Shown here: positions 3,506 to 64,000 of the stretch, piece after piece | Layout of the letters: each line of letters opens with the position of its first letter | Position numbering within the stretch: the stretch's first letter is position 1 | Source: Utricularia gibba | Taxonomy: Eukaryota > Streptophyta > Magnoliopsida > Lamiales > Lentibulariaceae | Direction: 5' to 3' | Assembly: GCA_002189035.1 (NCBI GenBank) | Contig: NEEC01000010.1 | Coordinates: 1,426,001-1,490,000, forward strand | Length of the DNA stretch: 64,000 nucleotides | Translations under genes and position numbers: made by a program | Notes under the pieces: model-generated | The model's database searches: none | Seen by the model: the letters and a program-made list of their open reading frames with translations, nothing else | Told to the model about the DNA's origin: nothing

Positions 3506-4954
3506 ATGATGAGTTGTTTCTCTTGTTGCTTGTCGGATGAGCCGGCAAAGCAGCAGGAGTCACCCACGGCCAACAACGCTCAAGCCTTCGTTGATCCCAA
3601 CTTGCCCTTGTCTGCAATCGCAATGTTGTCCATGAAAAATGGTGTGTTTTTGTATCTTCTTCTATCCCATGATTCATGAATCATTCCAACAATCTCCTTT
3701 GGTTTGCAGAAAGCAGCAGGAGGAGATATTTGACTGAAGAGATCGAGAAACTTCGGACCAACAACATTTCTGCAGAAGCCTTCACTTTCCAGGAGCTATG
3801 TGATGCAACCCAAGATTTCAAGCCCGAAAACCTGTTGGGTGAAGGAGGGTTCGGGAAGGTATACAAGGGGCATCTTCAAAAGAAGAACATGGTATCATGA
3901 TAATCATACATTTCATTTTCCAAATAAGAACATGGTATCTGCAGAAACGTTCAATTTCCTTGTTTGTTTTTGCGGTAGAATGTGGCCGTAAAGCAACTAG
4001 ACAAAGATGGGCTGCAGGGGAACAGAGAGTTTTTAGTTGAAGTCTTGATGCTGAGTCTTCTTCATCATACGCATCTGGTTAATCTGGTGGGTTACTGCGC
4101 AGAGGAAGACCACAGGCTTCTGGTTTATGAGTATATGCCCAACGGATCCTTGGAAGATCATCTCCTAAGTATGTAAGCATAGTGTGCTTCTTTCTTAAAC
4201 AAATGTTCAATGCTTATGTTTCAGTTTTCGATCAATAATGAATACCCAGCCAGATTCAGGTACTGCGAAGAAGCTGCTGGATTGGGATACAAGGATAAAG
4301 ATTGCATCAGGAGCAGCAAGAGGGTTGGAGTACCTTCATGAAACGGCCAACCCCCCGTAATTTACAGAGATTTCAAGGCATCAAACATTCTTCTTGACGA
4401 GGATTTCAACCCGAAACTCTCTGATTTCGGGCTGGCGAGGGTCGGCCCCATGGGGAGAAAGCGCACGTCTCCACCAGAGTTATGGGAACATACGGTTACT
4501 GTGCGCCGGAGTACGCCTCCACTGGTCAGCTCTCCACAAAGTCCGACGTATACAGCTTCGGAGTGGTGTTTCTGGAGATGATCACCGGTAGAAGAGTCAT
4601 CGACAGCACGAAACCGAGCCAAGAACAAAACCTGATCGAATGGGTAAGACTTAGCTAGGAAAAAAAACACTGCGTATGATTGATTCCATGTATTAAGAAC
4701 AAGGACTGGGACTGTTCCAGGCGCAGCCATTGTTCAAAGACAAAAAGAAGTTCCACGTGATGGCGGATCCGGTGATGGATCGAAAGTACCCAGAGAAAGG
4801 ATTGTACCAAGCGTTGGCGATCGCCGCCATGTGCCTGCAGGAGGAGGCCAGCTGCCGGCCGCTGATGACGGACGTCGTGACGGCATTAGATTTCCTCTCC
4901 GGAGCCCAAAGCCAAACTGCAGACCCCGGTACAGAGGAAGACCAGAACTTGTAA
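3506..4954 (+). CDS. Receptor-like cytoplasmic kinase, subfamily VII (PBS1-like), frameshifted in this sequence
   Basis: Five exons: 3506-3641, 3710-3891, 3979-4168, 4254-4643, 4721-4954. The N-terminus MMSCFSCC suggests membrane anchoring by S-acylation. The kinase domain follows with the Gly loop [11 protein letters not shown] (about 89-99), VAVK lysine (about 111), the RLCK-VII style YRDFKASN catalytic loop, SDFGLA and CAPEYA. These kinases relay signals from membrane receptors in immunity and development. Exon 4 is out of frame twice: one base is missing in the C run at 4351-4356 and one in the G run at 4452-4455. Adding one base at each gives exactly 377 residues with all motifs in order. 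The ATG at 3506 is preferred over the upstream one at 3452 because of the Cys cluster. Confidence 0.85.
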
Positions 4955-5444
4955 AGGCACCGACATTCCTTCATTACTGAATTACACTGTACATTGCATC
5001 TGCCTTTGTGAATACCCGTTTCATAGGTAAATTTAATAATATTTCCAAGCTAAAATTTTTTTATGCTTCCAAGCTAGAAAATAAGTAAATTTAATAATAT
5101 TATATTATTATATAACGATAAACACTTGAATTTCATGATACTATATATTTTGGATATTTAATTTTTATGGATTTACGTTTTTCTTATTTTTCATTTATTT
5201 TCTCAAGAGGTTACCCAACTTTACATTACTCTAAATAAAGCATGCTTAATTTTGAAGTTTTTATCAGTAATACTTCATCCTAAAAAGTTTGGTGTAAGAT
5301 TTATATAGTTATTCTACCCTCATTTCAAAAATCAAAATTGAATTATTATTAAAGAAATATGAATAAATTGGAAAAACAAAATGGCCTGATCTAGCGCTTG
5401 AAGATAAGGGCCGTTCATTTCCAGCTTGTGAAAGAAGCACTACA
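4955..5444. other. Intergenic region between kinase and LTD genes
   Basis: It contains the 3' end of the kinase transcript and an AT-rich spacer (about 5030-5370). I see no coding potential, RNA gene or clear repeat. Confidence 0.5.
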
Positions 5445-6064
5445 ATGGCGTCGGCAGTTGTTTCATTCGCCATATGCAACGCTGACATCTCCGCCAGACA
5501 CGCCGGGAATTCCTCTGAACCTCCTCGGGTGAGGCTGAATTCTGCATTCCTAAGGCCCTGCCGCGGTGGGAGGAGGCTGGGAGCGTGGCGTTCCACGAGG
5601 AATCTGGGTCCCAGCTCCGGTTCGAGAAGCACTTGCTGGTTCAAGTTCGGTAAAAATGGCGTCGATGCTGAGGGCGCCGGCATCTACGGCAGCCAGGGCC
5701 GCGAAGATTTCGATCGGGATGACGTCGAGCAGGTGATTCCTTCTCCGGTGCCTTTTTTTCTTCCGATTTGTATCCGCGTGTCTTATGGCGTTTTCCTGGG
5801 GGGCAGTATTTCAATTACATGGGAATTCTGGCGGTGGAGGGTTCGTATGATAAGTTGGAAGAATTGATGAACCAAAACATTCATCCGGTGGACGTTTTGC
5901 TGTTGATGGCGGCGGGTGAGGGCGACAAACCAAAGATCGAGGAATTGCTGAGAGCCGGAGCCAGTTACACCGTTGCCGACAGAGACGGGCGCACCGCCCT
6001 AGACAGGGCGGCGAGCGATGAAATCAGGGATTTCATTCTAAGCTTTTCACCTCAGAGGGCATGA
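5445..6064 (+). CDS. LTD: LTD/GDC1-type chloroplast ankyrin protein (LHCP translocation defect)
   Basis: Two exons, 5445-5732 and 5807-6064, join in phase 0 (CAG|TAT) to give 181 residues, close to Arabidopsis LTD (about 175). The first ~70 residues are rich in Ser, Arg and Ala, like a plastid transit peptide. The mature part begins near EDFDRDDVEQYFNYMG and ends with an ankyrin-like stretch (GDKPKIEELLRAGA, DGRTALDRA). LTD is a stromal protein that hands imported light-harvesting chlorophyll proteins to the cpSRP pathway. The frame is intact and the splice sites are canonical. Confidence 0.92.
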
Positions 6065-8626: not shown

Positions 8627-8670
8627 CAAGAGATGAAGTCGAGGATGAAGAGAGGAGAAGATGGAGTCCC

Positions 8671-11600: not shown

Positions 11601-12942
11601 TTTTTTATATTTGATGGTGATGTCACATTTCACTGAAGTGATGAGGGGTTAATTTTTCATATTTAACAGTAAATGTTTTTTTAAAAAAAACTGTTTGTGA
11701 TATTATTTATGTGTTTTATCCTGAGGTGTTAATAATGCATTTAAGAGAATTAATTTTTTATTCTGTTGGTAATAATGAATCATGCGCGTGGGCTTGAAAT
11801 TCAGCATCTTCTATTCAATGTATTGTTAATTTTCTTGCATCTTTTTACCTGTTCGTTGAACTCATTGACTTGCCCTTTTTTTTAATGCTGATTTTCACCC
11901 CGATCATTAATAACCTAACCCTCTCTGAAATAACCAACGAGTTTCTTTTTATTATTTTAATCTATTTTTTTATATACCCAACAAGCAACTAGGCATTGCT
12001 CTTATTCAAAGGCTACGGTCGGCAGCCCACGCGACAATTGGTTCCTTTCTTGTAATTTTTTTAAATTTAAAGTACATTTTTTACAATAAGAAAATGGGTG
12101 AAATGGCACGAGCCTAAAAACTAAGGAAGCTAATTGTGGGCCCCGGACACGGAACCCCCTCCCAAATGTACTCGGTGATTTTTTTGTATATATTTATAGT
12201 AATGTGTGAATTATTAAAATAAACAATCTCAAATTTTAAATAATAAATTATAGATCATTAGTAATTGTTTGGATTTGATATTTTTTTTATCTAATTTATA
12301 TTTTTTATATAATTGAGTTTCATGCATAATAAATTTATACATAGAATTTTCAATTTCAACATAAATGATATCTAATAAAAAAAGTTTTTATTTTTGTTTA
12401 TTTTTTTTCTCTCCTCTAATCTAATATTGTCTATTTTTTTCTCATCGTTGCTTTAAAAATTGTTCATTAAACATGGAGTTAGATTAAATTCAATATAAAT
12501 AAATTGAATAATAAGTTCAATTCATTTAAATAATACTTTTAAAAATACTTTAAAACATAATTAAAAATAATTGCATACGATTTAAATTGTTATGAAAAAA
12601 AATTCTTATAAGTTTAAACTTTTTTTAAGTAATGTTTCTTATTAGCACTATACAATTTTTTTTATGTATCATAAAAATAAAAAATAAATTCTTCATCATA
12701 GGGGATGAAGAGTCAGTTAAAATTTTCAATATTATAAATGATGGTGAAAGTGGACAGTAAATTTATAGAAACATATGAGGTTTTGTAATAATGGTTGAGG
12801 TTAAAATGAGTTAAATGTGTGTCTTTTTTTTGTGAAAAACGGGTAATTAGTTTAGCATTTGGAGCCAAATTACGCACTGAGCACATCGAATTGCACTGTC
12901 GACCCTCAGCAGTGCAAATCAACTGATAAAAGCAAGAGAATC
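8683..12942. other. Gene-poor intergenic region, 4.3 kb
   Basis: The part from 8700 to 9800 has moderate GC and presumably includes the VUP-like promoter. From about 9850 to 12900 the DNA is extremely AT-rich with many homopolymer tracts. I find no protein-coding frame with family similarity, no tRNA and no clear terminal repeats. Confidence 0.5.
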
Positions 12943-14139
<1,197 letters not shown>

Positions 14140-16328
14140 CGAGGAATACAAAATGCTTTCGAGGGAGGAACCTGGGAGACAGAAAAATTGAATGTAGGTG
14201 AGGTGATAAAAGGAGTTTGATGAAGCAGTGAAAATGGCACAGAAGCAGGAGGCTTTCGTCGAAAAAGTGTACAAAACTCACATGCAAAGGTTGCTGTTGG
14301 AATCTTGCGCTTTTAGTTGACACACGTCACTCATGCATGAAAGATTCTTAAACAAGCAGCGTACACTTGTCACGATAATGATTTAAAATATATAATTTAT
14401 AGTAATTAATAATAAAAGTTACTCATATACTTCATTTTTTTACATTGAATTTACCAATGGTGACAAATGAATTTATAGAGTATTTCATTCTTATTTCACT
14501 GTGGTTGGGTGAAAGAAGTCATCAACCATTCAAATAACCAATACGTGTTGCTATCAAGTCCAAATAACAATTCTTGTGATATAATAGAATCTCTCTTGTT
14601 TTCATGATCACATAGTGGTTGGGTTAAACCCAAATATACCCTTCAAATGATTCCCTACTAATCAATTCCTATGAAATCAAGAACTTGATGCAACCATCCC
14701 TTGGCGCATTAAGCCTAAGCCTAACATAAACAAATTGGATTAATTCTATTTAAAATGGCTTCTTATTGTAAGTAGGAGCATTGCTGATTTCACCTTGAAT
14801 CACTTCATGGTTTTAGAGTAACTTTCTAGAATTCATATTAAAGCATTCATTGTTGTTGGTTGAAATTTCCTTTGGATTGCTTGTAACTAGAGTGTTATAT
14901 TGTTATATTGCTATTGTTACTATGATACGCTATGTGAATGAAGCTTCATCCTCATTATGATTTTATATGGACTGCAATTATAGTATTGCTACTTACTTGC
15001 CTATTATGATGAGCATTGACTTTTTAAATTATTTATCTCTATTGTAGAATTGTTTATATGATTTTCCCTTGTGACTGCATCATGAGTATTGCAAAATCAC
15101 TTCATCACCATGAGGAACTAAACGAAGGCTATTCCACCCAACTAGCAAACTAGTACATGTTTTAGGAATGCTATTTTCGACTAAAAGTAGAACATTGAAA
15201 TTAGAATAGACTATTTTTTATTTTTATTGGGATTTTAATTTCCTCTTACTTTCTATTTATCTTTGGCTTGCAGCATTGTGATCATAGAATTTTTTTTTTT
15301 TCGTTTTATGGTGTTTTAGTTATATCTTGTATGAGTAGTTGAGTTAGGAATAATATATTGGGAAGAAGTGGGAGGAATATTCATTTTTTATTCTAGTTTG
15401 GAAAATGATAATGTGTAATGTAAATCTTCTTAATTATCAAATATAGATTCATAAGCCTAAGAGAAAATAAACTCAAGTTAGAAAACCAAACCTAGACTTA
15501 GACCAATTGGTTGGAGATGTGGTTAAATAATTTTTTTTCTAATATAGAGATTGATGACACTTAATGGCCCATAGCAAAATATTTTATTTTAGGCATTTTT
15601 GACCTATACCAAAATGATTTATTCGATATACATGGTCTAAAATTTTTATGAAATAGTATATTTGATTCATTAAAAATTTATTACATCACATATTTGATTC
15701 ATAAAAGTTTAATTTACACTTTGACCTATAAAGTTTTATAACATGACATATTTGACTTAATGAAAATTCATAAAACTTTACAATCAGATTCGTTTGATCC
15801 ATTAAGTTTGTTGTTAATCCCCATCTACAGTGTCAAAGTGACATATTCAACCCAATAATTTGGCATACTTGCACCTTCTAGTTTAACAAATTGACATACT
15901 TAATCCCTGAATTTTGTGAAATGTGCATATTTAACCTACAAAATTTGAGAAATTGGCATAATTAATCCAACAAGTTTATCAAATTAGAATAATTAACCTA
16001 TAAAGTTTGACATAATTTTTAAAAAATCAAATCATCTTCAATAGAAAATGTTGGTCAATAAGTGCCTTATACTTCAGTTAATTTTCATCATTCTCATCAA
16101 TTGGGCTTTGATCAATCTGAAAGTCGTTTATATAACTTGGTACATTTTTCATATCTAGTACCCTTTGGAGGAACAAATGAAGTAGATTTCGTAGATAAAG
16201 AAATTTGTCATTGTCTTAGGTGCAATCCCATGAATAGGAGAAAATCGCTATTGAATTTTCATTCCAAACCCTACTATACACCTAGAATGAGGATTTGGAG
16301 GCTTGTGATTGCGCTGCAAACTAACAAT
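14140..16328. other. Intergenic region with degenerate repeats
   Basis: The first ~200 bases are the THI1 upstream region. The rest is AT-rich and without genes. From about 15590 to 16020 a degenerate tandem repeat is visible (separate entry). Confidence 0.5.
15590..16020. repeat. Degenerate tandem repeat, unit about 31 bases
   Basis: The clearest units lie at about 15893-16015. They follow the pattern GCATAnTTAAyCyaacAAG then TTTrTnAAATTn: for example a unit with GACATACTTAATCC, one with GCATATTTAACCTAC, one with GCATAATTAATCCAAC and one with GAATAATTAACCTAT. Upstream (15600-15840) looser copies with longer spacing carry CATATTTGAyyyAttAA. The units are diverged, so the array is old. It may be part of a transposon. 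Confidence 0.45.
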
Positions 16329-19858: not shown

Positions 19859-20924
19859 TCAAGCAAGACTGAAGGACGAAGCTGCCGTCTCAACAAACTG
19901 GCGCGCCCCTTTGAACCAGCGCTTATCCCCGGCTTGCGCTTTGCAGATGTAGAGCTTCCCATCGCTGACAGCCGCCGTGAGAAGTTGGTGCCGCCCGCCT
20001 TCGGTTCCATCGGCGGTTCTCGTCAGCACCGACAAGAAGTAGTACTGCTTCCCGCCAACCTCAGGAGTCGATGATTCCAGAATGTTTGCCGAAGCCACAA
20101 GCCCCGAGCCAAATCCTCCCTGAAAGAAATGTTAAAACTTTTAGTTGATCACTAAAAATCGTCAAAAAAGAAAAAAAGATGCCAACTTTGTACCTCTGAA
20201 TCCGTTTTGCCGGAGTAGGCCTGCTTGCCCAGCAGATAGTCCACCTGAAAGTGGAAACCCATGCTATTACAACCCATCCATGATCATATCGAATAAAAAT
20301 GAAGACCGGTATGGAGCTGGGTGTGCGTGTGGATAGCTATTTCATAAACTAGAAATCTTGAACTTTGAGATGTACCTGAGAGAGGAATTGCTCCGGGGAG
20401 CCGTAGTCGGCGATCGATTTCTTGTCGGTCGGGTGACGGAGACGATGACGTTGGTGGTGGAATCGAAGTTGTCCTCGTACCTCAGGACCTGGCCGGGGTA
20501 TTCCACTTCGCCGCTGGGGTTCCATTTCGAAGGGATCGAGAGTTTGAATCCTTCTCCGGCGTAGGGACTGAACTCGGTGTTGGTCTTTGGCTTCGCAAAA
20601 ATGTTGGCTGCAACGCATTTCAATTCAGACACACACACCACTAGCAGGGCAAATGAAATGATTAACTTATGGGTTAATCGGCTTTGTGGCGGGGCAGTTA
20701 CCGGCTTCTCCATACGCTGCATCGGCAGGGGATACTTTGGAACCGACGGCAGCAGCGCCAATGAGGACGGTCAGAGCCAATCTACGGGACACCGTGCCGT
20801 CGGCCTCCGCCGCCTGGCAGACGACGCGTCCCGGAACTAGGCGGCGACCGGAGGAGGATCCGGCAGTTGGCTTGCAGAAGGCGGCGGCGTGGCTGTGGAG
20901 AAACAACGCTGTGGAGGAAGCCAT
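19859..20924 (-). CDS. PSBP: PsbP, 23-kDa oxygen-evolving enhancer protein 2 (frameshifted in this sequence)
   Basis: Exons 20924-20702, 20607-20376, 20244-20194 and 20119-19859. The N-terminus is a bipartite transit peptide: Ser/Ala-rich, then a twin-arginine [14 protein letters not shown] segment and ADA|AYGEA, the usual lumenal cleavage of a Tat substrate. The mature part has [42 protein letters not shown] and ends in [10 protein letters not shown]. PsbP stabilises the Mn4CaO5 cluster of photosystem II on the lumenal side. Exon 2 loses frame between VSVT and DKKSIADYG: one base is missing in the G run at 20431-20433 (C on the coding strand). With it the protein is 255 residues, as expected. 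Confidence 0.92.
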
Positions 20925-22374: not shown

Positions 22375-25300
22375 TCAGCCTCGGACCAATTCAGGGTCCA
22401 CCTGCCCACTGCTTCCACTGGGGATGTTAAACCCAGTGATGGGCATTGATCGCTGACCAAAGTTAAGTAAAAGTTTCTTCTGGCTATCATCTGTATGCGG
22501 AAGACTAGCATGCAGGAGTTCCACAGGCATCTCCTTGCTGATGGCTCTTGCAGCCTCGGACCCAAGGGCATCTGAGTTAACTACCCTTTGAGCAATTACT
22601 TGGAGGATGCTATCATATTTGCTGACACAGTACTTGGTCAGGAGACTGAAGAAAGCATCGAAGGAGGCCTGCCACAGTGTTCGATAAGGATTGTTGAAGT
22701 TGCGGGCTAACTGATGGTCTGTGAGCAGGTATGTTGCTCTTTCTAGAACAGATTTCAGGATGACAGAGGCGCCATCTCCAGCAACACTACCGATGGGGCG
22801 CAGCGGTGGTTGCTCAGAGGAGCAGACAACAGCAGCCAGACAGGCGCTGAGTGATCGAAGATCCATTCCACTTACAGAAAGAGAGACTTTTTTCACTAGT
22901 TCATTGATGGTTGATGCGGTTTCAGGGTCAGGTGGCATACCTCCGAACAGGAATCTTAGATGGCAGAGAACAGCCATGCAGGTAATTCTGGCAAGTTCGC
23001 TACCAGGCAAAAGAAGGTGAAGAAACTTCACTATGAGCTTGCAGCCCTTGCAGACAGAGACTACTCGTAGAAACACAGCATAATCTTTGGGAGACCGACC
23101 GTCATAACTCCCACTTTTCCCGAGGGGATCAACAAGCTTAAGAGATGCAGCTAAGCCTTCTAAAAGTGCCTGCCGCCTCCTCCTGAGCTGGCTCCCTCCA
23201 TCTTGTGGTTGAGTACATTTCAAGAGCCTGTCGATATCATCCACATCCAATAAAAGACACAATCCTTCTTCGATTATGACCCTAGCTGCAAACATCGGCT
23301 CCTTTTCTAAAGGCTTCTCATACAATTTCTGGTCTTTGTCACCATTACTAGAACCACAAGTAGGTGCGTCAGACTCAAGAAGAGATTGAAGCCTGCGAAG
23401 TGAAGAAAAGCAAACCCTGCCAAAAGCGTCAACCTGTAAGTGTCCCTGTGAGTCAGAGCCACTGCGGGATCGAGAAGATTGCTCCTTTTGGTGAGATGGA
23501 CAAAAATGATACTTTGTCATCATCTGAGAATATTTCTTAGCAAGTTGGGCTTGATGGTAATAATCATCCTTGTATGGATCATTCCCATGATTGGAAGAAT
23601 GCTGCATCTTGAGAATGCCATCTATTTCTTCAGCATTCATGTACTTCGATCTGAATTGCACCAGACTACCACAACTTTTGTCAGCGCCGGCATCAGATCC
23701 TCGATGGCCAGACTGTTTTGAGTGTCTACTTTTCTGCGCTGACTTGGATTTTGTGTCTCTCTTGCTTGTCAACCCATGCTTGTTCAAATATGAAGGCGAT
23801 GGAAAGGTATTGAATATCTGGGCCTGCACTCCCGAGGAATTGAGTAATGAAGCCTCAAATAATCTCTGCTGGTAATGAGGCAATAAAAGTGATGGTGGGT
23901 GTGGGTTTTGATACTGATATTGAGGGTAGCTGTTTAAGAGGATAGAAGGATCCCATGCAGAACTCCAGCATGAGTGCTAAACTCATTTTGGAATAGATTT
24001 CGGTGAGAAATATCAGGCAAGGCTACATAGGGTGTGCTTGTTTTATGACGAAACCCCCCATATGGCAGGCCATGCAAGTACGCTGCATGATTAGCTGACT
24101 GAGAGCTCTTTGGAAGTGAATATGCAGACTTAAGAACACCGGAAACCAATGGAGAATTAAGATGGACATCATGTTCTGAAACTTGCGGAGAACCAGGAGG
24201 AGGGAATGAGGTAAAAGATGATTTTGGCAGGAAGTGTGGCTCACTCGTATAAAACTGCATAGGTTGGTGATCATGAGGGCAAGAAGATGCTCGATATAAA
24301 GGCCTTGGTTCAGATGGAAAAGCTGAAGAAATATGAGACTGTGAAGACCAATGATGACAATCCTCATAGTTTTCAGGATCGGATGCTTGATAATCATGCC
24401 AATCTGCTTCTCTGGCAAATTCTGTGGCCGATGAACCTGCAATGAAAACGATTGACCACACTGAAGCTTTCACATATGATGAGACAAAAAATGAAAATAC
24501 TTGGAAGACGAAGTATTTTGATTTTTCCTTTCTGGAAAATGATAAGGATAAAAATTTCGGTAAACAAAAACTCACTTTCCCTAGAGAAAGATCCAGAAGT
24601 TCTATCACCAATAACACCAGGATGTCTTGGACCAGAAACAGTTTTGTTCAACTGCAATAAGGTACGCTAAGTCAGCATGATTGCTTTGAAAGTTTCCATA
24701 CATCACAAAAACTAAAAAGAAAAAAGGAAATGGAAAAATTCCAACACAAAAAACAATACAACAAAATCCATTCAGTCTTTCGAAAACAGATTGCTCATGC
24801 AATTGTGAAAGTAATAAGAATACCAGAAAATTCACATGTCAGCTAGAATATAGAAACCATGAAAAAAATAAAATGCCATAGTACATAAAAAAACTGCACT
24901 ATGAGGCAAGAATTTGTGGAGTTTGAAAGTGCTTTTTTTGAAATCATTCCCAAAATGCATCCCACAAAAAAAAGTTACAATCCCTTTTTCTAGTGCCCTG
25001 GGCACAATAAGCGACATCACTTTCAACACCATTATACCACTAACTACATCCATCTGTGAAATTGGGAAGGTTTCACCTTTGCGAATGTTGTAGCTAGATC
25101 ATCTATCTCCGATAAAGAATCCATTCCTAAGCCCTGGAAGAAAGTGAGCAAACTAGAGTTAGCTGAAACTCACGAAAAAAAAAACTTCCATAAAAGGATT
25201 AGAATTTCTAAATGAAGAAGAAACAAACAACAAATGAAAGCCATCGATATGCATCCGACATCACGAAGAACTGCAAACCAGATATAATTCTAATTCATTA

Positions 25301-28981: not shown

Positions 28982-30932
28982 CTACATCCATGGGAAAAGC
29001 CAATGCTTCTTTTTCTGTATCCTGAGAGGAACCTCTGTGGAGCAACAAAACAGGCAGGAGGATGAGAAGGATAAGGAAGCTGGAATCTGCTAAAAGTGCA
29101 CTGTGGTAATACGATGACGTTTCGTACCTCCGGCTGGATACAAGGAGTTGTAATGAATTTCGCTCCAGAAGCTCAGCCACAAGTCTGAAGGAGGTAAAGT
29201 GAGGAGTGGAGACAGGGTATTTTTATGATAAAGGGATGAGGGTGTACCTCTGTATGGAGTTTTATCCTTGGGGAGAATTTCAATGTAGCAACTGTCTCTA
29301 AAGGAGGTAACCAGACAAATTTTCACTTCAAACTACACACAACAAACATAGTAGTGGAAGTTTAGGTTGAGACCCTTTACAACTCTAAGTGAAGAGCAAA
29401 ATGTGGGTGAGTGCCTAGAAGGGCAACACTGAATGTAAAAAGGGGAGAGATGATCAACACGATTCTCACTTCAAACTATGGATGCACAAAAATAAGTGAT
29501 GGAAGTTCAAGATGATTCCATTTGAATTCTAAGTTAGCAGCAAGTAACAGGGATATGTAAAAGGTGAGTTACACGATTTTTCTACTTCGAACTGCATCAT
29601 CATAAAAATTTGGGGGCTCCAAGTTAAGATCCCTTTGCAACACTAATGAAAATCAATGTTGAATGCCTAGTAGCTTCACTTACTCTGTCTGATGCTGCCT
29701 GTAGAGTGACGTGGTCTCCCATTCTCCTAATCTAAGATCACACAAAATATTGGCTCAGTTGTATAAGTACGCAATGTCAAATTGCATACAGGAGAGGGGT
29801 GAAGTCTCACCTCTCCATCTTCTTCACATATTGTTTGTATTTCATGGGTACATAACCTTCATACAGTTTACGATGATCTTTTAGCTGAAAATGAGAGAAA
29901 GTTGAATTCAAATATGTACTTCACAACAAAAATGTACATTTTTAACAAGTCTTCTCAAATTATCAGTGCAACTGATATGAAATCGATTCCAAACCTGCTT
30001 GACAACCTCCTTTCTTATATATTTATGGTAATCAGGTTTCTGAAATAGCTGATCTGCAAGGGCTCTGAACTGTAAAGTAGAAATGCTAAATTCATTATGA
30101 AGAAAAGACAAAACATTAAGAGCAGAAGGACTCAAAATTGGCATATATCATGCCTGTGAATGATGAAACATTGATAAAAATTAAAAATACATTTTACAAG
30201 TTGATTCAGGACCAACCTGGCAATTTCCATCCCCCGAATTTGTAATTCAGCCAAACTGTATCGGGCTAATCTAATAAATCCATGAACAAGAGAGAATTTA
30301 CATGAGAAAAATAGCTTCTTGATTATCACATAAAGGAGTAACAGCTGCTGCATGAGCATACAACCTCACCGCCAAGCTCTCATGGTCTAAGCTTGCATCA
30401 GTCGGATCAGGTATATTTTCAATGATGCGTGGTGTGTGCTGCCATTTGATAGAATGTAAGTTGAAATATCATAAATGAAAAAGACAGATAATTCTCAGAA
30501 ATCTGTTGTAGAACCCGCAAATTACATGCATAATGAGAACATACCAAAATTATGCTTGATACTACACTAGGTGGAATTCTATTACATGATCCTGAATTGC
30601 AAGAAAGACCATATAAATGTGTCATTTGGACAACTGATGAAATCGAAAACATCCTACAGAAGTACTTGAACTGACTAAAAATTTCTTGATCTCAAAATAT
30701 ACAAGCTATTACTTGAAAAAAAACATTAGGAGAAACACAAAAAACGATGATTTTCATCATATACCGGTATTGATTCCAAATGAGAAAGCTTCTTGCCAAG
30801 ACTGTTTTCATGCATTGATCTTTCATCTTCAGCTAGCATCGCAGCAATTGTATGATCATCCTCTGTATCATGTGAACTACTATTCCAACTCGAGCTCGAG
30901 CTCGCGCATTGGTTATTAGACATATGCGTCAT
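28982..30932 (-). CDS. OTU-family ubiquitin protease (frameshifted in this sequence)
   Basis: Nine exons: 30932-30765, 30438-30365, 30270-30217, 30069-29995, 29884-29811, 29731-29684, 29332-29248, 29184-29128, 29034-28982. They give 229 residues once two single bases are restored. The catalytic region should read GDGNCQFRALADQLF (Asp and Cys of OTU proteases) and the catalytic His lies in WSEIHYNSLYP. The C-terminus KKKHWLF is typical of the plant OTU9-12 clade, soluble deubiquitinases. One base is missing exactly in the Asp-Gly codons (run 30231-30235). A second is probably missing in 29718-29720, where GEWGDHVTLQAA is expected. A short frame at 30591-30545 was tested as an exon and rejected, because exon 1 joins directly to HTPRIIENIP. 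Confidence 0.85.
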
Positions 30933-32358: not shown

Positions 32359-35300
32359 TTACTGCTTCTGGGACTTGAGCTCCAGCACCCTCTCTTCAGT
32401 GCTCTTCAGCGCGTTCCCGTAGATCTCGATCAACTGGAAATACGAGGAACAGAGCAGGGCACTCAGAACCACAAAGGGGTCATGATGAAAGGAACACGAA
32501 GCTTTCTGATGGGAAGGAAATCTGTCGTGCTTCTGGTTACCTGATCAACTTCATCCAGAGTCATGATGAAAGGAGGAGACATCATTATATTGTCACCGCT
32601 GACGCGCACCAGCATTCCGTTCTTGGCGCATTGCGCTCCGAAATAGGCTCCAACTCCTGAGAGAGTGTTTGTTAGTCATCCCAGGAAGAAGAAAAGACTC
32701 CAAAAGAAATGGGTATAGTACTGTGAGGAGTGCGTACCCCAGTCAGCAGGGAAAGGATCATTTGGCGACTTGTTGTCAGCAAACTCTGTGCCGAGGATCA
32801 AACCGGTTCCCCGTATCTTCCAGAGACAAACAAGATTACCCAACGTTTCTGGAAACAAGAAACAGATATGCTATGGGACGGACACCCACCTCACCAACAA
32901 TGGGGCTGGTGGCAAATGCCTTCACACCATGCTGAAATCTTGGTGCTATTGTGTTCACATGCTCCAGAATATTTCTTTCCCTGTACCCGAAACATCGGTT
33001 TGAAGAGATCAAATGTGTTGGAATATGCTTTCACTACTCCAGGTTTGTTGCTGCGTAGGACATAAGGTAGACTTACTTGTAGATCTTGAGAGTTTCTAGT
33101 GCAACAGCACATGATACGGGATGGCCGGAATATGTGAATCCATGTGAGAAAGAGCCTAGAAAGAAGATAATCAGAGGAAAAACGTAATCGGTGTTCACCG
33201 ATGGATTATATAATAAAACTCATCACACCAACCAAGCTTGTTGCTTTGGGAATGTATGACATCATGGATTTCTGGGCTGACCAAAACTGCTCCGATAGGC
33301 ATATAACCAGAAGAAAGAGCCTGAGAGGATTGGACAGGCAAGAGAATTAACAAGAATTAAAATGAAGGATTCCGGTTCTCTCGCATGATGTTTATGTTAC
33401 CTTTGCTAAAGAAACAAGATCAGGCTTGATTCCATACTTGTCACAGCCGAACATGGTCCCCAGCCGTCCAAAGGCGCATATAACCTCATCAGCTATAAAC
33501 AGGATATCGTACTTCTTGACAATGGCTTGAACCTGATTTGCATACAGCAACAAATAACATATTGCAGCACAGAGCTTATCACTGCCAGAACCAAAAGGGC
33601 ATAACAAAAAATGTGATTTATTGCAACTTCCATGACTTCACTTGGGCTAAATGATAGATACAAGACATCTAAGTTTATGCCGAGAAACTTGCAGTTCATT
33701 TAGGCAAACCTTCTCAAAATACGTTGCAGGTGGGGGAATAACTCCTCCTGCTCCCATAACCGGTTCGGCAATGAAAGCAGCGATCTAGAAGCATGAAACC
33801 GTTAAGAGAGTTCAGTAGCAAGGTTTGGGAACACAGAAGAAGTAAAAATTAACATATCTGATTGTTACCGTCTCAGGGCCTTCTTTTAGTATGAGTTCCT
33901 CTAAGTTGTTAGCCAACCTTGTAGAAAAATCCTCTTCAGTTTCACCTGAAATGCCAACAGTGTTAGTCGAAGAAGACATATCAACTTATCTAGAATACCA
34001 AGAAAGACCTGGCAGATGATAGCGCCAATAGTGAGGGCAGTCAGTGTGGAGAACAAATGGAGCTGGTAGATCAAATTTGTGATGTAGAGCTGGAAGACTG
34101 TTTTAAATAAATTGACTGGTCATGAATTTTCTGCAAATCCAACATGAGTATTATTCTTGAACCTAAAGGCCGAAAACATACCCGTAAGGCTGGCTGATAT
34201 AAGTGTTGAACCATGATATCTAACACAAAGAGAGATTAAGATGAACATCTATAAAAAAATGATAAAAAATGAAACAACATATATCTCAGATAGAAGGCAT
34301 ACGATTTTTCCCGTGCAATGAACTTTTTCTTTTCAGGTCTACCAAGGGCGTTATTGTAATACCAAACCAGCTTAACCTATAAAAGCTTAAGGTTAATCTT
34401 CAGAAAAAAAAAAATACTGTAAAGTGTACACATATGAAGAAAAGAAATGTTAACAGTCATGTATTCAAATGCATGCACAAGATAATCTATACAAATTTGC
34501 GGATCACTTGAGAACATCAAACCTGAGAATCGTTGGCTTCAGATCCACTATTTGTAAAGAAAACCTTTTCCATTTTATTAGCAGTAAACATATCCAAAAG
34601 TTCACTGGCAAGATCCTGCATTCATAAGTATATCACTGCAAATTGATCACAATATATCAACAACCTACGAAGAGGCTATAATCTAGGTACCAAAGATGGT
34701 TTAGTTGTTCGGTTCCAAAAGGAGTGATAAAAGGGCAACTTGCTCAGCTGTTTTGTTGCAGCCTCTACGAGTCTCGGCTCACTTCCACCTTAAGAAGGCA
34801 CAGAAATGTGGAAAAAGGTATTACTCTTACTTCTAAAGTACTACAAGCTACGATATGAAGACTTAATGACAACCATCTGTTAGATAGCTCATACTATATA
34901 ACACAGCAATCCTAAGAGATACATCAAAGTGTTTTGGACAGAGATGCATACAATCAGCTGTTTTAGCAGATGCAAACATCGATATTTAGACAAACAATGG
35001 CATTAAATTGTATCAGAGTTACAAAGAGCAGTATAATTTGATAAAGAAGTTGCTAGGTATGATAGTAGGAGTACCAAGTGAAGTGCACCATAATCCAGCC
35101 AAGGAATCAAGATACTTTTTGCCATTAACATCATACACGTAGGAACCCTGCAACAAATAACCGCAAAATGCGCAGAATCAGAAGCGTTTAATGGAATTTG
35201 AAAATCTGAAAATGGCTTTGTTCAAAAGCCACTTACAGCATAAATACAATCCTTCTCTTCTCATACAAAGAGGACATGGAATACAATAAAATCCATGAAA

Positions 35301-38358: not shown

Positions 38359-39803
38359 TTACATTTGAAATAAAAACCTCTTTTTAAAATCGTTGATAAA
38401 TCGGGTAAGAAAGTAATCCGACGGCCCTGGATTGCGCAGAGTTTTCCTGCTCTTGCCTTTCATGTCTTGCACCTTGTCTCTGATGGGATTTTCCAAATCC
38501 ATCAACTCTCTTATTGCAGCACAAATTTTGTCGGCCGGGATGATCAATCCACCGTTACGCCTGTAATCCATCTTAATCTCCACCGCCATCTCAAATTCCT
38601 TCACCAACTGAAAAGCATTCGCCTGTTGCTCCGCCGTCAGTGGCCATGTCGCCATCGGAACGCCAAACCAGACGCTTTCCAGAGTCGAATTCCACCCACA
38701 ATGAGAAACGAAGCCTCCCACCGCGGGATGGGCTAAAACCGTCGTCTGCGGGGCCCATCCGATGAGTTTTCCCCTTCCCTTAGTTCGATCTAAAAACCCG
38801 TCTGGTAGGACCTCGCTGTAGCACTCGTACTCCGTCGGAAAACCCACCTGTTCGTCTTTGGGCGGCCTTCTTAAAGCCCATAAAAACCGGTTACCGCTGG
38901 TCTCGAGTCCGGTGGCGATTTCTTTTATTTGATCTTCCGAGAAGCCACCGCGCGTACCGAAACAGAGGAACACTACGGAGGAATCCGGTTGCTGATCGAG
39001 CCAGTTGATGATGTCGTTGTATTCTCTCTTTGATTTCTCTGCTTCGTCGATGCCGAGCTGCAGAATGGGTCCGATGGGGTAAAGAGGGGGGAGTTCGCTA
39101 TTATCCCAGAGTTCCTGAATCGCGAACCTCTCAAAATCAAGGAAAGTGTTGCACAGAATTCCTTTTGCTCGCCTGAACCATCGAATCATCTCGAAAAACA
39201 CGGAATTCATTCGCGTATTGAAGATGAATTCGGGGAGTACGGACGACGGAACCGGGTTTTTATACCCTGGAATGACGAGTGGCTGACTGCAACTTTGATA
39301 CTTGAGAAGCTCCTCTGTTTCTTCCTCCTGGATGCTCTGAAAATGGAACACCATCCCAAGACAAGCAGCCCCCGAGGTGAAAAAGACATAAGACGGAAGT
39401 CCTAGTTCATCAGCGACATCAATCATCGGAGTGAACACCATGTCAATCACAAAAGCTGCCGGATAATCAGATTCCGGTGACAGAGTATCTCAGCCACGGC
39501 GTCCCTGACGACCCCCTTCTGGTTCTCAACGAACTCCCAAATAAAACCTGGATTTTCCGGGTTTTCGTTTTCCAGGGAGAAGGGAGCGAGATGGAGAAAG
39601 TTCACGCTCGGCGATGTGCTGATACAGGAAGAGATGTTGGTTTCCATTGGGATGTTTATTAACAGAACCGTGACCTCCAAACCGGCGTCGTGGCTAGCAA
39701 GGAGCTCCGCCGCCTTCACGGTGGGCAGAAAGTGGGTCATCACCGGGAAGGGAATGAAGAACAAGCTCGCTCTCTTGGAGACGGAGGCGTCCATTGTGTG
39801 CAT
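38359..39803 (-). CDS. UDP-glycosyltransferase, UGT71-like (frameshifted in this sequence)
   Basis: A single-exon gene. The N-terminal half has FFIPFPVMTHFLPTVKAAELL with the catalytic-type His, typical of group E UGT71 enzymes. The C-terminal half has the full PSPG box, from GWAPQTTVLAHPAVGGF through SHCGWNSTLESVWFGVP to the final AEQQ; the terminal Gln favours UDP-glucose. Such enzymes glucosylate phenolics, flavonoids or hormones; the acceptor cannot be told. The frame breaks near 39481-39490: the upstream frame runs to a stop at 39447, while SPESDYPAAFVIDM is one base away. One missing base gives 481 residues, the normal length. Start could be Met 1 or Met 4. Confidence 0.9.
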
Positions 39804-41014: not shown

Positions 41015-44000
41015 TCACAATTCATCTTTGAGATCATCATCGCCTCCCATTAGTTCGTCAAGTGAGAATTCGTCTTCTTCTATGATCTCTCCATCTTTTC
41101 CATCCCATGGCTCACTCCTCAGAATCTCTGCAACTCCTTCCAGAGGCAAGGTCCCTTTCCGCCCAGTCCAGCTTCTTTCACAAACTCGCTGCCATGGGGA
41201 TGAAACCAAAATTCAGTTGTTATGGTACCCGCCGCACATCTAGGAATGACAATGCTTACATGATTTGATCGTGTTGAAATGCGCTCTTGAGAGGGGCATA
41301 AGCTTTTTTCTTGAGGTTGAGTGCTATGAAAGCCGGATATCCGTAGCCTCCTACTCCCACTTGCCTCTCAAGGTTTGGTTGCTTAGTTGCCGCAGCCCAG
41401 AGATAGCTGTAATTTCAAGAGCATATGCTGAATATACAATACAAGATGGTTCACCGGCTCTAGGCAGGATAAGTGCTCTAGGTTCCTATTCAGAGGCCAC
41501 AAGTGCATCGAAGATTGCTATCTAGTAAGGGAATGGGTTGTGAGGTTCAAGGTTGAAGATGCGTCTCAACTAATGATCCTAATGGAAGGGATGTGAAGTT
41601 CAGTGCGCTTAGGAGAAAGTGTGAGGGTGTGTGTTTTGTTGGAAGGGTAAAGTGAATTGGGTTCTTCCTCACCTGTAAGGGCTTCTTTTGAACTTCTCTG
41701 CAACGGATAAGAGAAGTTGAAGATACTTGTTCCTGCCCTCAGCTTTGGAGTCCAAAATGTCAGGGAGGAAAGCAATAAAGCAGATCGCTGCAGGACCACA
41801 TTTCTCTTCCAGAACATCCTGGGAATAAAAATTTCACTTGAACAAAACAACAGGAAAAAGGTGCAATTCCCATAAATCACACACATGGATACAAGGAGCA
41901 TGCGTGCAAGATTAGTGAAAAAAAGGTGAGGTCTAACCTGGCTTGTAAGTTCAGTGACTTCAGGCGGGCTAGCATTCGCTTCCAGCTGCTCCAGAGCAAA
42001 AGCTTCAATTGCTGATGCGGATCTTGCCCCTTCATATGGAAAGGGGCTGTTTTTATCAGCTCCGAAGACCAAGATTGTGGGAAATCCTTGCACACCAAAC
42101 CTGCTCATCAAAGACTGACATGCAAGATTTGTTAGAGGCATGCCACCAAGTTCTGATTTGGGAAAAAAAAAAAGTCAGTTCACTATCACATGTACGGCAT
42201 AATGATTCCATTCGAACTGGAAATTTAAGGGAGACTCAGCCATGAAGAAACGAAAACTCACCTTCCCAGCTATAAATTCGGTTTTAAAATGTATTCATAG
42301 GTTTGTCACAGAAAGAAAGCCAATTAATAGGTTGATGTATTCTCCTCCAACAATGATGAACAAAAATCATATAATTCACCAACAATGTTAGCCCATATTC
42401 AAATGCTCTAGCGGCCATCAGATTCATCATTCATATGAAGCATTCAATATTTACTCCTTCCAAAACCAGTTCTGAATATATTCATATGTCCATTATAGTC
42501 GGCACTAATTGTTAAGTTAAAAAGATGAAAATGAACTTACCTTTTCAGCATCACAATCTACATGTCCCAACTTCACCTGCCCCTTGAGACTATTGGCAGC
42601 TTTCTTCCACTCTGGAGCGAGTTTCTTACAGTGGCCACACCTACAAAGAAGAAAAGGAATCAAGAGAGCCTAACTTCTTACTGCAAACATTTAAATTGCA
42701 GCAACCCAAAAATCTTAAGTGGTACAATCTAAATAATCACATCTGAAAATGGAACTAACCAGGGAGCAAAGAACTCCACAATCCATAGCTCTTTGCTTTT
42801 TATTACTGTTTCATCGAAGTTTTGAGAGTTCAGTTCAACGGATGCACTTGGTTCTGACTTCCCACGTGACCCTTCAGATGATTTACCATTGAGACGCTCA
42901 CTTAAAAGCGCCTTGATCTGGATGAGAATAGAGAAAATTCATAAAATGTGTTGGTATACATTGTTTCAAGTTGTTGACATGGTAATGAATAAAGCATCAA
43001 TGCCTGCTTCACGGCAAACTCAGCAATCGGCTTAGCTTCCCTAGCTCCTTGGTAGTCAACAGGGGATTTGCCGGGTGCAAAGACCTTAATTGTTGGGAAA
43101 CCTCTAATTCCATATTCCTGTGCATTTAATATTCCATAAACATCATCAATAGGCAGCATAAATGATTTCTGACTCCATGTCCATGAGAAGAGATTGCTAA
43201 TGCTCATCAATATAAAACCTTTCTGAAGGTAAGAAGGCGATGCTCATGAAGCAAAATTAAATCTCACATGACATCACCTGAGCGAGTGACTTGTGTTCAT
43301 CAGCATCTAGCGCTGCCACAGTTGCTACACCCTTCAAAATGTTAGCTACCTTCTCCCATGTGGGTGTCAAAGCCTGACAATGCCCGCACCATGGGGCATA
43401 GAACTCAACTAAGACTACTCCATTCGAATTCAAGACCTGCATTTGTGCCCCACTGCAACCGTTCAGAAAATTCACGTACATAAACGCTGCACTATATTAT
43501 TACGATCACACACTAAATCTGCACTTCACATGAATATTCATTTTCAGATTATCACACATCAAGTCCGGATATGGTATCCGAGGATGCTGCTATTATTATC
43601 AAAAAATTCACAAAAGCAAGAGACTTGTCACCCTAATGAAGCGATAAGCATGAAACAGCCATAGAAATTTACTATTACTAACTCCCATTTCAAATGATCA
43701 AAAGATTATCAGCAACAGGTTAAATAAGCAATCCCCAAGTCCTAGACAGCTCAAAAAATTTATCACTCTTTCCCAAATTCACCTAATGCTACAATGTTGC
43801 CGCAATTTTGCTGGATTACGCCCACGATTCAATAATAAAGATAGTCGACTAAAGCCAATAACTTGAAGAGAGATAGTATTTATTTATGCGGCGTCACCTA
43901 AACATCGCCATTGCACGAAACCCAGTAAAAAGACGACCATCGTCACCGCAGTAGTGGGTACTCATCAAATTTCAAACTCAAATGCATCCTCCAAAAATTT

Positions 44001-48454: not shown

Positions 48455-48459
48455 TAATC

Positions 48460-48539: not shown

Positions 48540-48550
48540 GTCTCCGATTA

Positions 48551-48555
48551 TTTTT
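48551..48555 (+). terminator. Pol III terminator of tRNA-Leu
   Basis: TTTTT starts 12 bases after the tRNA end, the standard RNA polymerase III stop signal. Confidence 0.8.
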
Positions 48556-50147: not shown

Positions 50148-50509
50148 ATGGCGGATCTCAACTTTCTCATGGCCAGAGCCATCGAGAACCCCGGGCTGAC
50201 GCCGTCCTCCGAAGCTCTCTGTTATCGGTATTCTAGGACCCCGTGATCGATAATTCCGGAGAAATCAGGGAACGAGTCGACGTCGAGGATTACATGGACT
50301 GCGCATCCACCCACAGAATTGGGCCCTCAATCGCAGTTTTCGACACCGTCCGCGACAGCAAACTCGACTGCATGTTAGAGTATCCTTCTCCGCTGCATTC
50401 GAGGGAGCAGATGCGGGAAATCGCGGCCAAGATGACGGCTATGCTTCGTCACCGGTGCGGCGACAATTCCGATTCCGCATGTAATGAGATTAGTTTGCAA
50501 TGGACTTAA
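50148..50509 (+). CDS. Hypothetical soluble protein (frameshifted in this sequence)
   Basis: A GC-rich single-exon frame begins with MADLNFLMARAIENPGLTPS at 50148. It runs into TGA after YSRTP, while the continuation VIDNSGEIRERVDVEDYMD is open one base away and runs to 50509. One extra C in the run 50239-50242 joins the two into 120 residues. Coding-like composition on both sides (acidic and basic residues, few rare amino acids) supports a real gene. I do not recognise the family, and a 3' part could be missing. Confidence 0.45.
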
Positions 50510-54543: not shown

Positions 54544-55271
54544 ATGTCTCGTCTTGGGATTCAGACCCTGGCATCCATCACTTCCGCCGCCGGCGCCAAC
54601 GGCTCATTGGAGCCTCCCAACTTCGACCTCGAGAATGACTTGCCGCCGGGATCTTTCTGGTTATCGGGAGACGAAGAGTACGACTGGTTTGATCGGAACG
54701 CCTTTCTTGGGAGAAACGAGTCCACGAAGGGCAGTTTTCGCGGAGTCCCCGGCGGTGATCCCAATCCCGGAGATTTTCAGTCGATTTAAGGTATAGAGGA
54801 TCTGTAATTGGATTGCCCAAAACCCAACAGGTGGCGTTCTTGGATTCCAAACGGAAAATCGTTAAACAGGGGAACCAATCTCTGTTCACGGCAGAGGCGA
54901 AGGCGCCTAGGAAACCGATGGTTTCCGAGCCGGGTTCTCCGTTTGTTACGTGCATCGGAAGGGTCCGGTCTACTAAGCGTGGCCGCAGAAAATCGAGTCA
55001 CGGGAAGAGGAAAGGGAAATCAGGGGGGGAATCGAGAAGCACCGAGATGGAGAAACAGGATGATAAACCTCATTTTTTCTCGACTGTTTTCAAAATCTTG
55101 AGGTTCAAACACAATACCCTCAGGAATCGTTCCGGAACCGCGAAGATGGAATCATTGCAGCGGAACGCAAGCGTCAAGGGGATCAAAATCGCTACGATGA
55201 CGGCGGCTCCAAGCTTAGGGGAGGCGAAGCGGATGGCGTCTCAGCGGTGGCACTGGACGGCGGAAGGGTGA
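54544..55271 (+). CDS. Uncharacterised plant-specific basic protein (frameshifted in this sequence)
   Basis: The first part carries LPPGSFWLSGDEEYDWFDRN and LGRNESTKG, then FSVDLRYRGSVIGLPKTQQ, EPGSPFVTCIGRVRSTKRGR and a C-terminal APSLGEAKRMASQRW. This order of motifs is shared by a family of unnamed eudicot proteins; no biochemical role is known to me. The basic RGRRKSSHGKRKGK stretch could be a nuclear signal. The frame breaks between GGDPNP and RRFSVDL: one C is missing in 54766-54768. Restored, the protein has 242 residues. The ATG follows an acceptor-like ATCCAG, so an upstream exon is possible. Confidence 0.65.
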
Positions 55272-59276: not shown

Positions 59277-62200
59277 ATGGCGTCTTCTATATCCGCTTGT
59301 TTCTTCACCGTCACTCCAAAGTCGCAATCTTCGAGCGTGTGCAGTACAGCAGTCCGATCTTCGCAGTCATTCCACGTTAAGCGTTCGTTAATTATTCCCC
59401 AAGTTCCGCGAATCAGAGGACCGGAAGCTCGCATTTTTTTGGTTAGGGCTGTCAGGAATAACGGCGATGCAACTCCAGTACCGGCAGTCAGAACCGGCGG
59501 CGTTGTCGAAAGCGATAAACTGCCGTCTGATGTGCGGAAGCGGACCATGGAAGCCATCGACGCTTGTGGGAGAAGGGTTACTACTGGGGATGTTGCGAGC
59601 AAAGCTGGGTTGAAGGTGAATGAATCTCAGAAGGCTCTTCAAGCCATTGCTGCTGACGTCAATGGCTACCTTGAGGTCTTCCGTTCACATATTTCCCAAT
59701 TGATTCTTGTCTGAACATCATCAGTTCATATTGAGGTTCTTGAAGATGGCTCAACTTTTCTTTTACAAATAGGTTTCAGATGAAGGGGACGTTTTATACG
59801 CTTTCCCAGACGATTATAAATCAAAATTAGCTTCAAAGTCATTTAGGATAAAGATTGAACCCTTGCTAGAAAAGGGAAAGGTATGCAAAACATTGGGTTG
59901 TATGTAATCTGCGCCTCATATATTTTTTTATACTAAGCTCAGTGTTTTTCTGCAGATGGCAGCTGAATATGTAGTGAGGGTTTCTTTCGGAACAGCCCTG
60001 ATTGCATCCATTCTTCTTGTGTTTACCACAATAATTGCTATTCTTTCGAGTAGTAGGTAGGAGCCAGATTGTTTTTGGAGAATCATTCATTTGATTTTGA
60101 AAGTATTGCTATATCATTCCCTTTCATGTGCAGAGATGAAGATAGTCGTGGAAGACGTCGAAATTCCTTTGACAGTGGTTTTGTGTTTCACTTCAGTCCC
60201 ACTGACTTGTTCTGGTACACATCCCTCATATTTATCTGTTGAAACTAGAGTGCCATTTCCAAGATGAAAAGAAAAGAGAGAGTCCTGTGTTATTTTCTGA
60301 ATGCTTGACCCTGTGTCTGTTTGTCCACGCTGATTTTGGATCACTGGAACTTGAAAGATGAAAGACAACTAATGTTGCCGTCTTGGTTTGAAATGCACTC
60401 TCATGTGGAATATGATGGTTTAGATTTTTAATCCCTTATGAGTGCTTGTAAGGGTAAGTTTCTCGAAATTTGTCTGACTCTTGATGCAACGCAAAAATAT
60501 TATTGTGACTAATGTTTTGCAATAAGCTCATCCGTATCAAAGTTTTTTTGCAGTTTTCTGAGTTTCATGTAAATATAGCCTTGCGAGGCCTCTGTTTCAT
60601 TGAGTCAAATTCTCTCTTTTTTTTTATCAAGGTATTGGGATCCATACTACAGAAGACGGCCAGTGAGAGAAGGTGGCTTTGGGATGCAGTTTATTGATTC
60701 TGTAAGATAACAATTAATCTGAATTCTAATTGTGTATTTCTGGTTCCTTCATATATTTTTATGTTAAAAAGTCTTGTTTTCCAGGTCTTTTCTTTTGTAT
60801 TTGGAGACGGTGATCCCAACCAAGGTATTGAAGAAGAGAGGTGGAAGTTGGTAATAACTAACAGAACTGATTTCAGTGGTTGGATGCTCTAGTGCTTTCT
60901 CTTGTACAGCAAACTATGTTTTCATATCAACTCCTTGCTCACATAACACAGTATATGGAGTCCCTGTTTCTTTTTAAATAATGCGCATGATAAATCTTTC
61001 CTTTGAGATTGGGACAAAGTATCTGGATTGCCATTTTACCTGAGTCAAAATTTTCAGCCATAACAAACTGAATATGATCTGGTTGGTCTGTCTGAGTGTG
61101 CAAGAGTTTACATTGCCTTGTCCTGAAAACCATGTGCTTTTCCTGTTTACTTCTCATGATAATGTCTTGCAACCCGCATCTGCAGATTGGGGAATACATT
61201 GCTTCAAATGGTGGTGTCGTAGCTGCCGAAGAACTTGCTCCATTTCTTGATCTTGATAATAGAGTAGCATTGGTACTCTTGGTGTTTATAATTTTCGGAT
61301 TCCATTTCTCCACAAAAATATCCTACACTTCTGATTGCATCCTACTCACACACAAGGACTACGTTTAGACCTCTTGTTTTTCCCTTTTTCTGTCCACAGG
61401 ATGATGATTCTTACATACTCCCTGTTCTGCTGCGGTTTGATGGCCAGCCAGAAGTCGATGAAGAGGTTTTTGCTTTCCTTTAAAGCTTACTTAGTAAAAA
61501 TCTTACCACTTTGTAACACATGCATCACCTGCTCACATTTTCTTGTTAGACTCTTCTTAAGCTTTAGAATGTCACATTCTCCAAACATGTTCGAAGTCGC
61601 CTTCTACTTATGCGTTTTCGAAGTCTTTGTGGAAGCCATTTACTAGTATCTTGTTCTGCAACGTGCCTTTTATTGGTGTATGAGTGCAAGATTAATCTGC
61701 AGGCTTTTTCTGTTTCTCTCATATCAAATGGATGAACTTGCAGGGGCACATTCTATATCGTTTCCCATCGCTTCAACGCACGGCTGTGCCGCGGAGGAAT
61801 TCTCGGAAGGAGTACGTCGGGAGACGATGGGCCACTCGGGTGGATGGCCTTGAGTTCTTCAAAGAAAAGAAATGGCAATTCAGGTACTCCCTTCTCCTTC
61901 AACTAGTCGCCATCTTTTCTCTTCTGCTCTTGTGTTGTAACCTGTTGGACATACCTCCATCGCCAGTAAGACGGATGCATCTCAAAGGGCGATGGTGATC
62001 GGCCTCGGCGCATTGAATCTGTTCGGTTGCCTCACTCTTGGTACCATGTTGAAGTACGATATGCTGCGGTTTGCTCTCTTGTTCATCAGAATGTTGCCTC
62101 TTTTCTGATATGCCATTTTTGCTTGGAAGGCAAATGACTGTCGCCCCCAGCGGATTCGTGTCGTTTGTCGCCAGTATCTTCCCCTTGCTTCAGGTATGCA

Positions 62201-62630
62201 TTTCATAGCATGATCCTTCATCGCTCCAGTTCGTTGAGTTTGTCAATTCTTCACCTCGCAGGTCTACGCTGGCTCCTTCTTCTTGATTCCACTGGTCCGG
62301 TGGTTGTTTGTGCTAAACACAAACAATCAAATCGCGAAACGGAACACAACCAGGGAACAGTGTGCCAATGCACTTGAATCACCGGAACTTCCTCTCCGGC
62401 GAAAGGTTACCATCCGATTACCTTGGACAATTGCTGCAATTTCATGCCCCTAGGTTACCGAAATCTCTATAAACTATCTTTTTCAGCTCCTGAGCGCGCG
62501 AGACATGGCGCAGCGGACGTTTATCGGACAAGATAGAATCGTCTACAGCAGCGAAAGGGATCTGGTCGATCAAGACTACGACAGCAGGGACTGGGATCTG
62601 AGATTCAAAGAGATCGAGAGATCGGACTGA
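59277..62630 (+). CDS. Chloroplast membrane protein, homologue of Arabidopsis At5g03900
   Basis: Thirteen exons (first 59277-59675, last 62487-62630) join without a frame break to 518 residues, near the Arabidopsis protein (about 520). A Ser/Val-rich transit peptide precedes GGVVESDKLPSDVRKRTM, SDEGDVLYAFPDDYKSKL, the hydrophobic VSFGTALIASILLVFTTII (about 178-200), FGDGDPNQGIEEERWKL, LPVLLRFDGQPEVDEE and a second hydrophobic VIGLGALNLFGCL (about 383). A third follows near GSFFLIPLVRWLF. The end DWDLRFKEIERSD is conserved. Arabidopsis At5g03900 is annotated as an iron-sulfur cluster biosynthesis family protein of the plastid; its exact role is not established. Confidence 0.93.
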
Positions 62631-63587
62631 GTCGATTCGTTGCAGAGCCACATGGAAACGGCTGCTGCTGCCGCTGCCGCCGCCGCCTTTCTCCTTGCTG
62701 TAAATTGCTTGGCAAACGCCGTGGCTGGTGTCCATGTAAACTGTTTAAAAACAATACGCAACTCGTAGCCCTGCTTTAAAAATGAGTTCTATAAATACCG
62801 GGAACGGGCAAAGCCAGCTTCTGGTTTCATGGGCCCACCGCCGACCTCAGAATACCGAACCGGCTCAGTTTTTATAATTAAAATAATTTACTTTTTATTT
62901 TTCGAAATGTAGAATATAAAATTTCCATTTTAAAAAATAATATATACATATATAATGAATTATTATTTTTATTCTATTATTATAAGATTTCGAATAATGG
63001 AAATCAAAATTTTTATCATTTTATGTATTATTATAAATTAATTTTTATTTCTAAATTTAAGAAATATCAACTTATTTTATTTTATCATTCTCGTTCTAAT
63101 TTTCGATTGGAACCTCGTGACCTCGATCCATCATATCGGATTTGATTCTGCTGCTGCTGTTGGTTGCTCTTCCTTCCTGGTGAGTTCGAGTTCCCGACTC
63201 GGGGTATTTGCGCCAAGCATTTCTTATTTTTTTTATTTAATTTTCGGCCTGTTATTCTGGTTGGCGATGAATCGATAGCTAGGATTTCGGAGGGGTAAGT
63301 TGGTTTTTTTTTTTTTTTTTTTTGGTTTCTTAGTTTGAGTGGGGTTGGGGAGTACATGGTTGCATGAACAAAATTTTCCGCTTGGAAACCCGTCTTCTTA
63401 GTGGTATTTTCCTGGTTATTTCAAAGTAAAGAACAATCTTTAACTCTGAGAGCTTCAAATATGCTGTTCGTCGAGAGTTTTGATGTGGTTGGTTTATAAA
63501 CGTGTAAGTTGAACTTTCTCATGGATGTCCAAAACGTTTATTGAGCAACACCGTTCACTTTTTTTTTGAATTTCCCTGAACAAGAGT
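62631..63587. other. Intergenic region
   Basis: A GCTGCTGCCGCTGCCGCCGCC run lies at about 62662-62685 just after the previous stop. AT-rich DNA spans 62870-63080. A run of about 20 T occurs at 63304-63323. The rest may be a leader retained from the parent of the BUD31-like copy. Confidence 0.45.
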
Positions 63588-64000
63588 ATGCCTGAGGTGA
63601 AGAAGACAAGCGGGGTGCGGGGTGATGTACTCAGATGGGTGGAATTGATTGAGCATGGAGACAAAAAGTCTTAATCTAGTTATATTTTCATTGCAGGTGA
63701 GCTTGATCACACGATGGAAAACGCAAATGTGAGCCCCTATGGCTTCTTTTCAGAATACCCATCAAAAGAATCGATCCATTTATGGCCTTTGTCATCGAAG
63801 AAAAGAAATATCCAAGGATTTGTACGAGTGCTGGTTGGGTCAGGGTCATGCCGATCGCAGTTTGAACACTAAATGGAAAAAGGTAAGCCAGCTATTACCT
63901 GTTGTCGTTGAAGCGACAGGAAAGATTCATTGTGAAGCACTAGTCCACACATCTCACTGTTACCTGTTGTACGGCAGTCAAGTTATGGAAGGCTCAGCTG
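63588..64000 (+). pseudogene. BUD31: Degenerate BUD31/G10-like sequence (partial, runs off the window)
   Basis: At 63588 MPEVKK...RWVELIE resembles the BUD31 start MPKVKTNRV...GWELIE but with extra bases. After an acceptor at 63696 the next piece fits GKRKCEPLW only if one base is added near 63706, and HQKNRSIYGLCHRRKEISKD (GT donor at 63882/63883) only if another is added near 63765. BUD31 is a splicing factor of the spliceosome core and is nearly invariant in eukaryotes, yet this copy has many replacements (Asp to Gly, Tyr to Cys or His, Asn to Ser). The following piece SSYGRLS replaces PGYERLC. This pattern suggests a decaying duplicate that kept its introns. Confidence 0.65.

Follow-up and report, generated by a model that had tools for sequence, protein, structure and literature searches.

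The systems closest to the one described here are two genomes assembled with HGAP and Quiver. In the bacterial assembly of Streptomyces albus SM254 (PacBio RS II, HGAP v3, polished with Quiver only), 205 indels were corrected, "nearly all" of them in G or C homopolymers (PMC4832174), and before Pilon correction this genome carried, as the plant sequence does, one-base indels in G/C homopolymers that produced false frameshifts. The Plasmodium falciparum assembly before iCORN2 was likewise an HGAP/Quiver product with many one-base homopolymer indels and false frameshifts, and most of its errors fell in homopolymers and TA tracts of great length (PMC5964635). The Utricularia gibba sequence that we analysed differs from S. 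albus SM254 in that the clean events are losses only, the genome is that of a plant and AT-rich, the runs are short (mostly 3 to 6 bases) and the density, about 0.4 per kb of coding sequence, is higher; it differs from P. falciparum in that the events fall in short C/G runs.

A published U. gibba genome was assembled with HGAP from 88x SMRT reads and reached a contig N50 of 3.4 Mb (PMC5793159). For the same species, an mtDNA of 270,037 bp that contains a cox1 intron has been published, and the nuclear genome is put at 101 Mbp (PMC5516982). The assembly analysed here comprises 100.09 Mb in 516 contigs and includes a mitochondrial contig (C515) of 267,500 bases in which cox1 is split in two; in its contig statistics and mtDNA it agrees with the published data (PMC5793159, PMC5516982), and it is very probably the PacBio-only genome of U. 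gibba.

The window, that is the whole 64,000-base stretch of DNA under study, corresponds to positions 1426001-1490000 of contig C304. All of the C and G runs that the sequence-only reading had listed are present in it, and our results confirm that reading's observation of one-base breaks, which exceed chance expectation when compared with a simulated null. The claim that eleven sites each lack one base is borne out by homologues at eight of them, and by a switch of reading frame at the other three (23952, 50239 and 54766).

Table 1. Sites in the window at which a coding frame is interrupted (window coordinates; runs on the minus strand are given as read on the sense strand)
Position	Strand	Feature	State in the assembly
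4351..4356	+	C run (6 in the assembly), catalytic-loop exon of an RLCK-VII/PBL-type kinase	1 base short of frame
4452..4455	+	G run (4), same RLCK-VII/PBL-type kinase exon, 100 bases further	1 base short
20431..20433	-	CCC, PsbP (photosystem II 23-kDa protein)	1 base short
23952..23954	-	GGG between two overlapping ORFs, candidate PAT1-like gene	1 base short
29718..29720	-	GGG, exon start of an OTU cysteine protease	1 base short if GEWGDHV is read
30231..30235	-	GGGGG just before the catalytic DGNC motif, same OTU protease as 29718	1 base short
34181..34183	-	GGG at the exon/donor junction, GABA transaminase (POP2), after SASLTG	1 base short
39485..39485	-	UGT71-like glycosyltransferase, single exon	1 base short; outside runs of at least 3
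41153..41155	-	GGG, last exon of a PDIL2-3-like protein disulfide isomerase	1 base short
50239..50242	+	CCCC in a short ORF (MADLNFLMARAIENPG...)	1 base short; without Pfam match
54766..54768	+	CCC in an ORF (...NPN/RRFSVDLRYRGSVIGLPKTQ...)	1 base short; without Pfam match

Homologues were aligned to the joined frame pieces, with an X marking each break. The alignment to PBL2 (6j5t) continues across both kinase breaks, that to tobacco PsbP (1v2b) runs gapless through the break at 20431, where the PsbP paralogue on contig C451 is also intact across the equivalent site, and the break in the glycosyltransferase (UGT) is spanned both by 8w53 and by a paralogue in the genome (L002). In the same manner, the PDIL2-3 break is spanned by 9wzl, the GABA transaminase break by 21ft, and the two OTU protease breaks by homologues of a protein that also has a Pfam OTU match. 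At 29718 a nearer acceptor would give an open frame without an extra base, at the cost of the G-E-W before GDHV, three residues that are conserved in plant OTU proteins. When the window DNA was aligned blind to these references, with frameshifts allowed, the breaks at 4351, 4452, 20431 and 41153 and that in the UGT came out again as one-base losses, and away from splice sites there was no clean gain. The event at 34181 was assigned to the edge of the neighbouring intron, since the missing base lies at the exon/donor junction.

A test independent of homology, based on codon usage, indicated a shift equivalent to one lost base at 4351, 4452, 20431, 23952, 39485, 41153, 50239 and 54766; at 29718, 30231 and 34181 the exons are short and this test is uninformative. 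Since a search of Pfam gave no match at 23952 (in the gene that we take to be PAT1-like), 50239 or 54766, these three sites are backed by the continuity of the open reading frames and by the codon-usage switch. With one base restored, the PsbP, protein disulfide isomerase, kinase and UGT genes, as well as the magnesium-chelatase gene discussed below, read to their normal ends, without the further disabling changes of a pseudogene.

The phenomenon is not confined to the window. UDP-glycosyltransferase and HSP70 genes elsewhere in the assembly, on many contigs, were scanned by an alignment that allows for frameshifts; this gave 25 clean one-base losses but not a single clean one-base gain. Twelve of the 33 UGT loci carry 17 one-base losses, whereas 16 are intact and had none called; the remaining eight clean losses are in HSP70 genes, for example in copies that are 94-96% identical to an intact paralogue. 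The UGT losses, in roughly 47 kb of coding sequence, yield the density given above. When changes were simulated in intact genes, 246 of 300 losses (82%) and 128 of 150 gains (85%) were detected. Gains are thus found as well as losses, and the one-sided result does not stem from a bias of detection. Events were localised with a wider tolerance and a simulated null, a narrow tolerance being too noisy with divergent references, and for a few UGT events the exact position is uncertain because the references are divergent (30-40% identity). The counts exclude calls beside introns in multi-exon genes, which are artefacts of the splice boundaries, and also two HSP70 loci (L051/L052) that have a deletion of about 40 bases in common.

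The sequence-only reading had placed the losses mostly in C/G runs, with no case in A/T runs, and the bias to C/G runs extends beyond the window. Runs of at least three C or G fit 20 of the 25 losses, compared with 90 of 255 simulated random deletions (35%; Fisher p = 1.9e-5), and 15 of 17 in the UGT subset, while A/T runs fit 8 of 25 losses against 110 of 255 simulated ones and thus show no enrichment. In the window itself, C/G runs of at least three cover 4.4% of the bases and A/T runs of that length 18.9%.

The strongest arguments that the DNA of the plant differs from the assembly come from two genes that must work. Magnesium-chelatase H (CHLH) is required by green plants for chlorophyll. 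A single CHLH locus was found in the genome, and it is broken at ATCCC|AATG (C304:1367473), 59 kb upstream of the window, beyond which the protein is again in frame. The second is the plastid gene accD. Over 10 kb of the plastid contig C516 (L077, C516:64001-74000), atpE, atpB and rbcL are intact, and the frame of accD shifts at seven consecutive G (about 7890-7896 in L077), after which its conserved domain reads to the end; accD thus appears to be without one G in the run of seven. The plastid event also counts against an assembly error, since coverage there is presumably far higher and yet one event is found.

We consider it almost certain, on the strength of these sequence comparisons, that the sites in the window are errors of the assembly and not of the plant, and we read the breaks in this way because the same losses occur across the assembly, even in CHLH. 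The losses are one-sided, concentrated in homopolymers and spread regardless of the importance of the gene. Systematic undercalling of C/G runs, as proposed from the window, is therefore supported by the one-sided and C/G-biased losses genome-wide, in CHLH and apparently in accD, and by a signature that agrees with the residual errors published for an HGAP/Quiver assembly (PMC4832174); the proposal itself stands, and is refined in that the effect is genome-wide and not peculiar to the window. Judging from the technology that its statistics suggest, the assembly was very probably built from noisy PacBio long reads alone, with HGAP and Quiver polishing. In consensus sequences of this kind, short C or G runs would sometimes be called one base too short, and coding frames in the window and in the assembly would thereby be broken about once per two to three kb of coding sequence; the longer runs would be expected in the reads. 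Such consensus error is a known and ordinary property of long-read-only assemblies, which is here traced genome-wide.

Were the frameshifts instead real mutations of the plant, either recent pseudogenes or segregating alleles, one and the same kind of one-base change would have disrupted about one third of the UGTs recently, and a green plant would have to live with its sole CHLH locus dead; real indels should also include gains, of which there are none among 25. Gene duplicates are common in the assembly, and true decay does exist nearby, as in a thiamine thiazole synthase copy of the window that has an in-frame stop while another copy is intact; the two HSP70 copies with a common deletion (L051/L052, above) are nearly identical. 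But true decay looks different, proceeding by substitutions, stops and larger deletions, whereas the broken genes otherwise keep their frames and their conserved residues. Nor are the breaks restricted to dispensable or duplicated genes, CHLH being a single locus, an argument that is weak for the window genes, most of which have paralogues; because these paralogues exist in the genome, most of the window genes could, taken singly, still be pseudogenes. As an account of the sites, real frameshift mutation is very unlikely.

If the plant itself had a mutational process that deleted bases from C/G runs throughout its genome, this would explain the strong bias to such runs and to losses, but it cannot account for the loss of function of CHLH, and selection would have purged most such alleles from conserved genes; we regard such a process as extremely improbable. 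A related view, that the shorter runs are real and arise from a strong genome-wide C/G-run deletion process, while other alleles, or some rescue at the RNA level, make up for the broken genes, strikes us as highly doubtful. Programmed ribosomal frameshifting or another form of recoding, under which the sequence would be right and the proteins still made, agrees with a frame that is off by one base at every site; the contexts, however, share no common motif by inspection (C runs, G runs, an exon/donor junction and a site without a run), and paralogues and homologues are in frame without recoding, which leaves this explanation barely credible. An error of the assembly thus remains the reading that we adopt, and it bears on how this genome is used. 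Utricularia gibba is a species for studying compact genomes and gene loss, and if about one third of single-exon genes are falsely frameshifted, then gene models, pseudogene counts and claimed losses need a check with short reads.

Some other interruptions were considered and set aside. Carbamoyl-phosphate synthase had been a candidate for a shifted gene, but its gaps, 58 and 71 bases long, are consistent with introns. The psaA on contig C515 was likewise rejected as a frameshifted plastid gene, since that contig is mitochondrial (cox1) and the copy has several stops, as befits a transferred pseudogene. In that part of the mitochondrial contig (L076, C515:70100-74600), the plastid-derived psaA is decayed and psaB is open, with 744 aa; a search for PsaA and PsaB gave no hit on C516, the plastid contig.

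Duplicated sequences were met in several places. The copy of THI1 (thiamine thiazole synthase) in the window, at 12713-14277 on the minus strand, has an in-frame TAA at 13427-13429 in a frame that is otherwise well kept, and a second THI1 (G000:C255:2776146-2776838) is intact; the window copy looks like true decay of a duplicate, with a pattern unlike the losses in runs. A contig of 31 kb, C241, duplicates part of C304 at 99.5% identity (L073, C241:10001-19000; L074, C304:2233000-2241999), and the duplicated part includes an HSP70 gene whose copies have a deletion of about 40 bases in common. The two copies differ by 16 substitutions and two one-base gaps, outside C/G runs of at least three, differences that are too few to be informative. 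Finally, two copies of EF2 with equal scores form an inverted repeat about 4 kb apart (G000:C304:2312925-2315348 on the minus strand and 2319307-2321730 on the plus strand), which is either a recent inverted duplication or an assembly artefact from a chimeric read.
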